Shown piece after piece: positions 8,659 through 61,092 of a DNA stretch of 61,092 nucleotides. The notes beneath the pieces were generated by a model. That model saw nothing but the letters and a program-made list of their open reading frames with translations, was not told the origin of the DNA and ran no database searches. Made by a program: the position numbers and the translations under genes. This stretch comes from Piscirickettsiaceae bacterium CG07_land_8_20_14_0_80_44_28 (GTDB lineage: Bacteria > Pseudomonadota > Gammaproteobacteria > Thiomicrospirales > Thiomicrospiraceae), in assembly GCA_002779995.1 (NCBI GenBank), contig PEWX01000028.1:1-61092 (forward strand), given 5' to 3'. The first letter of the stretch is position 1, and every line of letters begins with the position of its first letter.

Positions 8659-9813
8659 ATGCGCTTTTCGGAATGGGATGAAAAAATGATGCGTCGAGCG
8701 CTGAGCTTGGCTAAGCAGGGGCAGTTTTCTGCTAGACCCAATCCGGCGGTTGGTTGTGTGATTACCCGGCAACATCGTGTGATTGCAGAAGGTTGGCACC
8801 AAAAAGCGGGTGAACCCCACGCGGAAAGAGTCGCTTTGGCGTCAGCTTCTGAATCGGTTAAGGGCGCTACCGTTTATGTGACGTTGGAGCCTTGTAGTCA
8901 TTTCGGACGAACCCCTCCTTGTGCGGATGCATTGGTTGAGGCTTCGGTTTCAAGAGTGGTGGTGGCGATGCAGGATCCAAACCCGCAAGTTTCAGGGACA
9001 GGGATTCAACGATTACGGGATGCCGGCATTCACGTTGATGTTGGATTATTGGCGTTTGAAACTGAGGTTTTGAATAAAGGCTTTAACTTTGCCATGCGAC
9101 ATCAACGGCCTTTGGTGCAGTTGAAGATGGCCAGCAGCTTGGATGGGCGCACGGCAATGGCCAGTGGTGAGAGTCAGTGGATTACCGGGGCAGAATCTCG
9201 TCAAAAAGTGCAATGGCTTCGAGCGGAACAAGATGCGATGCTGACAGGTATTGGCACGGTTTTGCAAGATGATCCCAGTTTGACGGTTCGGTTGGATCAG
9301 GCGAGTTTAGATGCACAGCGATGTTATCGGAATGCAGCGCATCAGCCAATTCGGGTTATTTTGGATTCGGATTTGCAACTTCCCTTGACGGCAAAAATAA
9401 TAGATCTACCGGGTCAAGTCGTGGTCATGACGGCCGAATTGACTTTGACAGCCCAGCCACAAAAACTGCTGCAGTTACAACAAAAAGGCGTGGCAGTGCA
9501 TGGCGTTGCCAAACAGCAAACAGGACAATTAGATTTAAAGGCTGTTTTGGCTATGTTGTGGCAGTGCTATGATGTACAACGCTTGATGGTTGAAGCGGGA
9601 GCAACGCTTGCAGGTGCTTTGATTCAAGCTGATTTGGTTGATGAATTGCACCTGTTTAAGGCGCCAGTCTTATTGGGGGATGGTGCGAGACCTTTGTGTT
9701 TTCTACCAGGCCTGGTCAAAATGGCAGATAAAATTCAATGGAATTTGCAGTCAGTTGAAATGTTGGGTTCGGATATTTATTTGCAGTTGACGCCCAATCA
9801 TAAACCCCAATGA
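8659..9813 (+). CDS. ribD: Bifunctional riboflavin deaminase/reductase RibD
   Basis: 384 residues with two domains. The N-terminal deaminase carries the zinc site H54-A-E56 plus C79 and C88 (PCSHFGRTPPC); the C-terminal reductase (about 150-380) uses NADPH. It performs the second and third steps of the riboflavin pathway. ATG 8659 has AAGGAGA just upstream; an ATG at 8644 is in frame but has no such site. A CCAGGCCTGG copy at 9706 is read Pro-Gly-Leu. The ribE gene starts 7 bp after the stop. Confidence 0.96.
   Translation: MRFSEWDEKMMRRALSLAKQGQFSARPNPAVGCVITRQHRVIAEGWHQKAGEPHAERVALASASESVKGATVYVTLEPCSHFGRTPPCADALVEASVSRVVVAMQDPNPQVSGTGIQRLRDAGIHVDVGLLAFETEVLNKGFNFAMRHQRPLVQLKMASSLDGRTAMASGESQWITGAESRQKVQWLRAEQDAMLTGIGTVLQDDPSLTVRLDQASLDAQRCYRNAAHQPIRVILDSDLQLPLTAKIIDLPGQVVVMTAELTLTAQPQKLLQLQQKGVAVHGVAKQQTGQLDLKAVLAMLWQCYDVQRLMVEAGATLAGALIQADLVDELHLFKAPVLLGDGARPLCFLPGLVKMADKIQWNLQSVEMLGSDIYLQLTPNHKPQ
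9706..9715. repeat. CCAGGCCTGG decamer
   Basis: Exact copy in ribD, read Pro-Gly-Leu-Val; followed by TCAAAAT. Confidence 0.95.
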
Positions 9814-59235: not shown

Positions 59236-59322
59236 GCCAGTGTGATGAAATTGGTAGACATGACGGATTCAAAATCCGTTGCTAGTAATAGCGTGGCGGT
59301 TCGAGTCCGCCCACTGGTACCA
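59236..59322 (+). tRNA. tRNA-Leu (anticodon CAA)
   Basis: 87 bases with encoded CCA. Acceptor GCCAGTG pairs with CACTGGT; the anticodon loop is TTCAAAA (CAA, decodes UUG); a long variable arm (TGCTAGTAATAGCG) marks the leucine class; the T-loop is GGTTCGAGTCC. Confidence 0.97.
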
Positions 59323-59341: not shown

Positions 59342-59418
59342 ACGACCGTAGCTCAGTTGGTTAGAGCACCACCTTGACATGGTGGGGGTCGGTGGTTCGA
59401 ATCCACTCGGTCGTACCA
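59342..59418 (+). tRNA. tRNA-Val (anticodon GAC)
   Basis: 77 bases with encoded CCA. Acceptor ACGACCG pairs with CGGTCGT; D-arm TAGCTCAGTTGGTTAGAGC; anticodon loop TTGACAT (GAC, decodes GUC/GUU); T-loop GGTTCGAATCC. It lies 19 bases after tRNA-Leu, so both come from one transcript. The 3' half of a tRNA is a common integration site, and CRISPR-linked DNA follows. Confidence 0.97.
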
Positions 59419-59491: not shown

Positions 59492-60631
59492 TTAACCAAA
59501 TTCGATTTGGTTGGGTTGAAGCTTCATGCCATTCGCCTTCTGTCCGGGTATTTTTTCAATGAGATAAGATGGGGCATTGACCCCAAGATATTGGGTTAGA
59601 ATTTCTTTAATTTCAACCTTCCTGTCATCAAAAAAACGCTTTTTTAAACCATTTTCAAAACGAGACTCTAGATCTTCTATGGCGGTGATATGTTCATCAG
59701 TGCCTTCCGCAAAGATTTCATCGACACATACAAATAGTTCGGCGCTATAGGTCATCGATACACTGTCTCCAGGTTCAAAATCGTAGCGAACCACACTCCC
59801 TTCAACGCATTTTTTTGCCATCCAATAATAGAAAATAAAATTCATTCGTGTCAAAGGAACGGTTACATTATTTACCTCAAGCGTTAAGTCTGAACAAATT
59901 AGCCTTACATGGTGATTCTCTTGGCGGATTTGGCGTTGCAGCAAGTTAACCATGTCATTAAAGTCTTCAATGTTTTCTAATAACTTGTCATCAATTGCAT
60001 GGCGCATGCGCACAAATGGCAAAAAAGCCAATTCAATAATGGCATCTTTTTTATCAATGTATACATCAGGCTGACGGCGTGATGGAAAGATTTCTGAATA
60101 AGGTGTCGGAAAATAGAAATCCAATTCACTTTCAAATTTTTCCTATACTAAAACATGTGACAGTTGGTCTTGATCGCGTCCAAACATTGAAAGCGCATAA
60201 CCAGCATAGAAGCCCATTGTTTTTCGACCACCAGCGATTGAAACATGCAAATCTACATGCGGGTCAGAGGTGAAATCTCGAATCATCCGACTAATTTGGT
60301 TAGCTACTGCACGATTATCTTCTGGGGTGCGAATATCTTGAATAATCTCATTTTGATCATTGCGAATACTAATCACATGTTTAGGCGAAAAAGCGATGCT
60401 GTTTAAATTATAAATTTGGCATAGTTTATTAAACCACCCTCCGTTTGCTTGAAATAAGCCTCGTATACATTGTTCAGCCCCAAACCCAGTGGTTAAAACA
60501 AATATCTCATCGGGAATAAATTTAGGATCATTTTGAGTGAGCGCATAAACCGTTTCAGTCAAAATTTGCGGAGAAGTCCCCAAAATTGAAAACAGTATTT
60601 TTTTTATCGGTTTGTTTGTTACATGAGCCAT
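59492..60631 (-). pseudogene. CRISPR-associated ring nuclease/Csm6-like protein, NE0113 family, interrupted by one in-frame TAG
   Basis: Two open parts lie in the same frame: residues 1-162 (60631-60146), a TAG at 60145-60143, six more sense codons, then 210 further residues to the end at 59492. Without the stop the protein would be about 378 residues, the size of the NE0113 family. The first part has the CARF core: FSILGTSPQILTETVYAL, TGFGAEQ, and VSIAGGRKTMGFYAGYALSM. The second continues with FYFPTP and AIIELAFLPFVRMR, as in family members. These proteins sense cyclic oligoadenylate from type III CRISPR systems. Base change, readthrough or sequencing error could explain the TAG. Confidence 0.8.
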
Positions 60632-60913
60632 ATTTTGTATCTTTTAAGTAATGAATTAAGTGTTTATTATTTCAAAAGTTTTTGCTGATTTTCCCTTCAC
60701 AAATTTGTAAAAGCGCTATCCTAGTTGTATTTAAAGTTTAATAGAGTCAATGTAAAAAAGTAGATTTACTTATAAAATTTTGATAGTTTAACAAAGTTGT
60801 TTAGATCAGCTCTCGTTTTTAATGTCCTTTTTAAATACGCTGTTGATTGACAATTAGCTAATAAGATCGTAAGTAAATTTTGTTTACGAATTTAATGTCA
60901 AGGGAAGGACACT

Positions 60914-61092
60914 TTGAATCATAGTAGTCATAAAACTGCGTTGCAAGAGGGCGAAAAGCTCACTGTATGGAACCAATATTTATATGCCGTCTTTGGAAAT
61001 AAAAAGCGCGCTCAGACAATCTTCTATATTTTAATCGTTTTAGTTCTTATCGTTAGTAGCGTGAGTTATTGTCAAATCTGGTGTATGGACTC
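60914..61092 (+). CDS. N-terminal fragment of an unknown membrane protein (runs off the window)
   Basis: Open for 59 codons from TTG 60914 to the window edge, with AAGGGAAGGAC directly upstream. About 35 polar residues lead into a hydrophobic helix (TIFYILIVLVLIVSSVSYCQ). A TTGACA at 60847 could be a -35 element. It is divergent from the broken ring-nuclease gene across 282 bp of AT-rich DNA. No family recognised; in this context a type III CRISPR ancillary membrane protein is possible but unproven. Confidence 0.55.
   Translation, partial: MNHSSHKTALQEGEKLTVWNQYLYAVFGNKKRAQTIFYILIVLVLIVSSVSYCQIWCMD

Follow-up and report, generated by a model that had tools for sequence, protein, structure and literature searches.

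An amber codon interrupts an NE0113-family gene for a predicted CARF–winged-helix regulator in a probably inactive type III-D locus

The interrupted gene and its type III-D locus

The window, the whole stretch of 61,092 nucleotides that was analyzed, is the complete contig C88 of a 2.28-Mb genome in 122 contigs. Its right-hand end carries an NE0113-family gene and the start of a divergent gene, with the following features.

59236 to 59322: tRNA-Leu gene near the locus
59342 to 59418, plus strand: tRNA-Val gene bordering the locus
59492 to 60631, minus strand: gene of the NE0113 family (CARF5) with 379 codons and a stop, broken by a single TAG, with PF09623 and TIGR02584 matches
60143 to 60145, minus strand: codon 163, an in-frame TAG whose alignment column is variable and directly follows the invariant LSHVLV
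60914 to 61062, plus strand: beginning of a gene for a putative membrane protein, start TTG assumed, hydrophobic by eye, with its 3' part at the right end of contig C4
61054 to 61062: 9-bp target-site duplication TAGTAGCGT, second copy at C4:12976-12984
61063 to 61092 (last 30 bp of the window): left-hand terminus of an insertion-sequence-like element whose right-hand terminus occupies C4:12985-13053

Read on the minus strand from 60631 to 59492, the NE0113-family gene comprises 162 codons beginning with ATG, the TAG, 216 further codons and a normal stop. As the original prediction had stated, the frame is intact on either side of the TAG, with no frameshift and no further stop found between 59492 and 60631, and family sequence resumes directly after it. 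TIGR02584 matched the first half alone at 160.4 bits (model positions 1-155) and the second half alone at 28.1 bits (157-209), and PADLOC CARF5 matched the halves at 229.4 and 110.1 bits. Read through the TAG, the frame scored 206 bits with TIGR02584 (cut-off 80.65), 127.3 bits with PF09623 (cut-off 23) and 357.2 bits with CARF5, placing it in the NE0113 family, with which it also shares the GGRK motif. Pfam gave a match for the first half and for the read-through frame, and none for the second half scanned alone. A dicodon score detected coding signal on both sides of the TAG; weaker, cruder codon scores did not pick the TAG up. These data confirm that one in-frame TAG splits the gene.

Aligning the family, a check proposed with the original prediction, placed the TAG in a variable column immediately 3' of LSHVLV, where Gln is found in 3 of 12 sequences from the same order, including the two nearest. 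LSHVLV was present in 79 of 80 related loci from named genomes and was followed most commonly by S (58), then by E (6), T (5), Q, N and D (3 each) and G (1). A stop codon within the matched part was found in none of the 80 relatives. Within the order, 12 of 14 NE0113 matches were stop-free, the exceptions being the window gene and a short remnant. The gene occurs in 2 of 11 genomes of the genus, counting this one, and in 11 of 62 genomes of the order, one of which has only the short remnant. A short decayed NE0113 remnant with a TAG lies at L053 (G016:C5:370235-370369), in another genus of the family.

Contig C4 (13,053 bp) of the same genome encodes Cas10, Csx10, Csx19, three Cas7 proteins, a Cas6-RT-Cas1 fusion and Cas2, together with a 14-repeat array. 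PADLOC scores of 230 bits for Cas10 and 226 for Cas10d, 288 for Cas5_IIId (Csx10) and 46.9 for Csx19 assign this gene set to type III-D; the NCBIfam Csx10 model scored 60 bits, below its cut-off of 177.3. The csx10 gene (L056:8519-10060, minus strand) is itself interrupted by a single in-frame TAG at 9641-9643 and is otherwise intact; in a set of 60 genomes from the order, the other five csx10 matches were free of internal stops. The fusion gene at 1637-4582 of C4 (L056) is uninterrupted and encodes 981 residues, with RT and Cas1 identified by profile. The remaining part of the fusion we take to be Cas6.

An insertion-sequence-like element appears to sit between the window and C4. The first 25 bases of its two ends form an inverted repeat with 21 matches, and rejoining the flanks without the insert yields an open frame of 239 codons. 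The gene broken by the insertion is the putative membrane-protein gene, with which the type III-D operon begins. In the relatives G036 and G048 the order is unbroken, with NE0113 divergent from the putative membrane-protein gene, which is followed by cas10, cas7 and csx10. Since the element ends share the same 9-bp flank and the relatives share this gene order, C88 and C4 appear to form one type III-D locus of the Hydrogenovibrio group, a join made from contig ends and gene order rather than from reads. Additional copies of the element ends were seen at C34:4545-4569 and C93:50-74, likewise near contig ends.

The locus resembles type III-D systems with Cas6-RT-Cas1 and differs in carrying three lesions in this genome: the NE0113 amber, the csx10 amber and the insertion in the neighboring gene. 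Both ambers, the insertion ends with their duplication and the gene order of the relatives are read directly from sequence. Several further lesions in the frame would have counted against the original prediction; none was found in the NE0113 frame, and two were found in neighboring genes of what is apparently the same locus. Because NE0113 is truncated, its neighbor is disrupted by an insertion and csx10 contains an amber, the type III-D locus is probably inactive in vivo in this strain.

Predicted architecture of the NE0113-family protein

Two domains were predicted in the read-through protein.

59969 to 60604, minus strand: CARF fold, the sensor, covering residues ~10-221 and spanning the TAG, from structure matches
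59495 to 59917, minus strand: residues ~239-379, predicted from structure and profile, not from Pfam, to form a winged-helix DNA-binding domain of the OmpR/PhoB type

The read-through protein was modeled with a pLDDT of 93.9, and its best structure matches were CARF proteins, as expected of a CARF fold. These included the CARF domain of Cad1 (9c6a; Z 14.2, rmsd 3.0, 163 residues aligned, model residues 10 to 221) and the ring nuclease Crn1 (7yhl; Z 13.4, rmsd 2.3, 147 aligned, residues 11 to 206). Since these matches run to residues 221 and 206, a stop at codon 163 truncates the predicted fold. The original prediction had placed the stop just behind the cyclic-oligoadenylate-binding core and had expected termination to release a CARF-only protein; in the model the TAG lies inside the CARF fold, and a product ending at residue 162 would lack its end. 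With translation ending at residue 162, this strain would lose both the last part of the CARF domain and the entire DNA-binding domain.

The C-terminal domain modeled alone reached a pLDDT of 96.2. In VIA, a second look at the matches from Foldseek, all 50 of the 50 matches listed were OmpR/PhoB/CadC/ToxR-type DNA-binding proteins, headed by BaeR (4b09) with a middling Z of 8.8 and an rmsd of 3.0 over 100 aligned residues. Foldseek itself gave a best E of 0.058 (ArlR), with unrelated proteins lower in its list. A profile of 49 family sequences compared with the PDB at E up to 10 returned eight matches, all response regulators; the best was KdpE at E 0.018, and none passed 0.001. A single-sequence PDB search with the C-terminal domain returned one unrelated match (E 0.28), and no Pfam winged-helix family was named in six C-terminal pieces at E up to 10. 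HEPN did not occur among the structure matches listed for this domain. A HEPN-like string noticed by eye in the C-terminal half was discarded once the models were made.

Consistent with this architecture, a 2014 study grouped NE0113 with Csa3 as CARF families without an effector domain that were predicted to regulate transcription (PMC4012209). Thus, on the domain models, the NE0113-family protein is most likely a transcription regulator predicted to respond to cyclic oligoadenylate, with binding of both ligand and DNA suggested by its folds. A regulatory role was already proposed in that study; its link to the palindrome described below is new here.

The archaeal CARF–winged-helix protein Csa3 (2wte) offers a close parallel in plan, a CARF sensor joined to a winged-helix DNA-binding domain. 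Csa3 matched the read-through model with a Z of 8.5, but at an rmsd of 16.1 over 195 residues, and no model named Csa3 was among the matches listed from the Pfam, NCBIfam and PADLOC scans. The window protein differs from Csa3 in the predicted OmpR/PhoB type of its winged helix, in its bacterial host and in its link to type III systems, whereas Csa3 has been linked to type I-A (PMC4012209). Csa3 sites have been described as palindromes (PMC8844856).

A candidate operator and the function of the family

The divergent region of the window contains two candidate sites.

60698 to 60709: CACAAATTTGTA, an operator-like palindrome in which one pair is imperfect, 66 bp 5' of the NE0113 ATG
60790 to 60801: AACAAAGTTGTT, a further operator-like site, also with one imperfect pair; its start lies 124 bp ahead of the divergent gene

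Little could be learned from aligning the divergent regions at the DNA level, except that the alignment first pointed to the palindrome CACAAATTTGTG. It precedes the NE0113 start by 66 bp in the window (one mismatch), 70 bp in G048 (exact) and 69 bp in G036 (two mismatches), and in G009 an exact copy lies 87 bp before the gene preceding NE0113. With random sequences of like composition, 25 of 2000 trials gave a 12-bp palindrome shared between the counterparts of this genome and G048, and 0 of 2000 gave one shared by these two and G009. No report of GCAAGCTTGC as an NE0113 site was found among the titles and abstract openings listed from the literature searched.

The 80 related loci, a set that overlaps the data in which the motif was found, were then scored for 12-bp palindromes with the core CAA-NN-TTG in the 300 bp upstream of the match. 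A perfect site was present upstream of NE0113 in 28 of the 80, where the remainder of the loci led one to expect 1.13, and a site with at most one imperfect pair in 48, where 3.26 were expected; the remaining 32 lacked a site even when one imperfect pair was allowed. When all 64 cores were compared, CAA accounted for 28 sites and the other cores together for 3. After thinning to less than 70% identity, 17 of 49 loci had perfect sites and 30 of 49 had sites with at most one pair off, against means of 0.08 and 0.66 under a Markov null. Within the gene, control regions contained few sites (perfect, 0/80; at most one pair off, 2/80), and downstream control regions contained 5/78 and 10/78, respectively. 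Like the domain models, this enrichment comes directly from the sequences, and its position at the NE0113 gene itself is as autoregulation would predict.

Elsewhere in the 80 loci there were 33 perfect sites, 21 of them intergenic according to a mechanical gene list. Twenty of the 32 genes beside these sites were scanned; 12 matched CRISPR genes (Cas2, 4; Cmr1-like, 3; Cas6, 2; Cas10, Card1-like and Csx16, 1 each), and the other 8 had no match at 1e-6. Outside these 20, cas10 in L082 lies 148 bp behind a palindrome site. In 484 kb of the genome studied here, 6 perfect and 33 one-pair-off sites were counted, and the 282-bp divergent region of the window holds two of the latter. If the palindrome is an operator of the family, the window would keep an imperfect copy of it beside a broken family member.

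NE0113 was also sought on mobile carriers. Phages gave no match at 1e-5, viral contigs one weak partial match, and plasmids 10 records; the NE0113 genes L184-L191 are carried by large plasmids from Allochromatium, Vibrio, Photobacterium, Aeromonas and Rhodothermus. Eight of the 10 plasmid records, which had not been used for motif discovery, served as an outside set, and in none of these eight did a site occur in the 300 bp upstream of NE0113. Three of the eight (both Allochromatium and Photobacterium toruni) had sites at gene or operon starts elsewhere, as judged by eye against the annotation, including one site 86 bp before csx16. Of the remainder, two had other sites and three had none.

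On balance, we favor the proposal that NE0113-family proteins are bacterial counterparts of Csa3 that respond to cyclic oligoadenylate, regulate their own gene and control type III promoters (cas10, cas6, cas2, cmr1-like, Card1-like and csx16) through NNCAA-NN-TTGNN; the NE0113 protein itself would read the palindrome. Under this proposal, Cas10 would synthesize cyclic oligoadenylate upon infection, and a dimer of the N-terminal CARF domain of NE0113 would sense and bind it. In the ligand-bound protein the winged helices would alter their grip on CAA-NN-TTG palindromes, and the NE0113 promoter and type III promoters would respond, upward or downward, coupling the sensing of infection to expression. 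If so, type III systems of many proteobacteria would contain a built-in switch that raises or lowers defense upon the Cas10 signal, and the concrete DNA site makes the role of the family testable.

The same palindrome might instead belong to another regulator or be a general promoter element, with NE0113 merely one of its targets. Such a reading would accommodate the sites that precede many cas genes, the perfect sites in 5 of 78 downstream control regions and the plasmid loci without a site directly upstream of NE0113. We nevertheless regard it as unlikely, given the strong enrichment at the NE0113 gene and a count of just 6 perfect sites across 484 kb of this genome.

We consider it quite improbable that NE0113-family proteins are ring nucleases or Csm6-like nucleases, in which case the TAG would release or destroy such an enzyme. 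The original prediction had called the gene ring-nuclease/Csm6-like, the NCBI name for the TIGR02584 family is "CRISPR-associated ring nuclease Csm6", and all eight of the plasmid NE0113 records examined carry the csm6 ring nuclease name. The matches of the CARF domain to Crn1 and Cad1 also suit a nuclease, as does the absence of a Pfam name for the DNA-binding domain. Further, CARF domains of effectors often cut their own ligand (PMC12409355), so ring-nuclease activity beside regulation is possible. Against a nuclease, the Crn1 profile NF040581 scored 21.5 bits for residues 1-162, against a cut-off of 125, and was absent among the matches listed for the read-through frame. Although Crn1 (Sso2081) resembles the window protein in its CARF fold, the matched chains of 168-184 residues have no room for such a DNA-binding domain. 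The C-terminal half, by contrast, resembles OmpR-type DNA-binding domains in both fold and profile, the 2014 study predicted a role in transcription, and an operator-like palindrome lies upstream of NE0113 genes. Thus, the NE0113-family protein is probably neither a ring nuclease nor Csm6, and the NCBI label finds no support in the predicted C-terminal domain. A widespread CRISPR accessory family therefore bears a name that its predicted second domain does not support.

Origin of the amber codon

In-frame stops were sought in 474 kb, comprising the window, C4 and a 400-kb sample, in a scan that is blind to frameshifts and insertions and was judged by eye. It returned 35 in-frame stops with coding signal on either side, of which 2 were clear splits, both in the type III-D locus, and 32 looked like adjacent genes. 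At L154:18368, an in-frame TAA between frames of 421 and 75 codons, with coding signal on both sides, was left undecided by eye. No Pfam family was found at three scan junctions, the sides of L154:18368 included. Because the lesions are clustered in one locus, and random errors would be spread, the TAG is read as a real nonsense mutation.

We therefore consider it likely that the TAG arose by genuine nonsense mutation in a type III-D locus undergoing decay and that the interrupted NE0113 gene would encode a CARF–OmpR/PhoB-type transcription factor binding the palindrome. A recent pseudogene was among the options of the original prediction, and these findings support it. While relatives of the NE0113 family (PF09623, TIGR02584; PADLOC CARF5) lie in type III loci, the window copy is set apart by its interruption. 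The amber itself would be ordinary decay, in a strain in which the switch, its neighbor and csx10 would all have been lost; the predicted switch and its candidate DNA site are the part of interest.

A sequencing or assembly error at a codon that is truly sense would fit a draft assembly of 122 contigs and a TAG only ~0.95 kb from a contig end. It is nonetheless very unlikely in view of the second in-frame TAG and the insertion with target duplication in apparently the same locus, the lack of any other clear split in the 474-kb scan of in-frame stops by eye, and a genome completeness of 99.99 with contamination of 0.05.

That the amber is programmed or suppressed, yielding short and full-length products on purpose, perhaps in two genes at once, is hardly credible: two single in-frame TAGs do fall in one functional system in frames that are otherwise intact, but RF1 is intact on contig C80 (552 bits, cut-off 423) rather than lost as recoding might require, TAG is an ordinary stop, used to terminate 56 of the 287 long frames sampled, no relative among the 80 has a stop in the matched part and only the remnant among the other order matches has one, the short product would miss the last part of the CARF fold, and the insertion in the neighboring gene suits decay. 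The search for a suppressor tRNA proposed with the original prediction likewise gave no support, as all 38 tRNA matches, from 150 of 179 candidates scored, had sense anticodons and none had CUA; this list is incomplete, since it contains no tRNA-Phe, and a missed tRNA is possible.

Elsewhere in the genome, uninterrupted genes for Csx16 and a Card1-like CARF nuclease lie on contig C97 (L168:8008-9662), near a tRNA Pro-Arg-His cluster and a contig end. No palindrome was found near these two genes, which may depend on the C88/C4 locus for their signal.

Self-targeting was considered as a cause of inactivation and rejected: comparison of the 13 C4 spacers with the window, the 400-kb sample and smaller loci gave one 14-base match, taken as chance. 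Within the 14-repeat array (L056, C4:1-1048), 3 of the 13 spacers share TTAACTAATGC, as if drawn from one repetitive source, and one viral contig, L170, contains TTAACTAATGCTAACTTAA.
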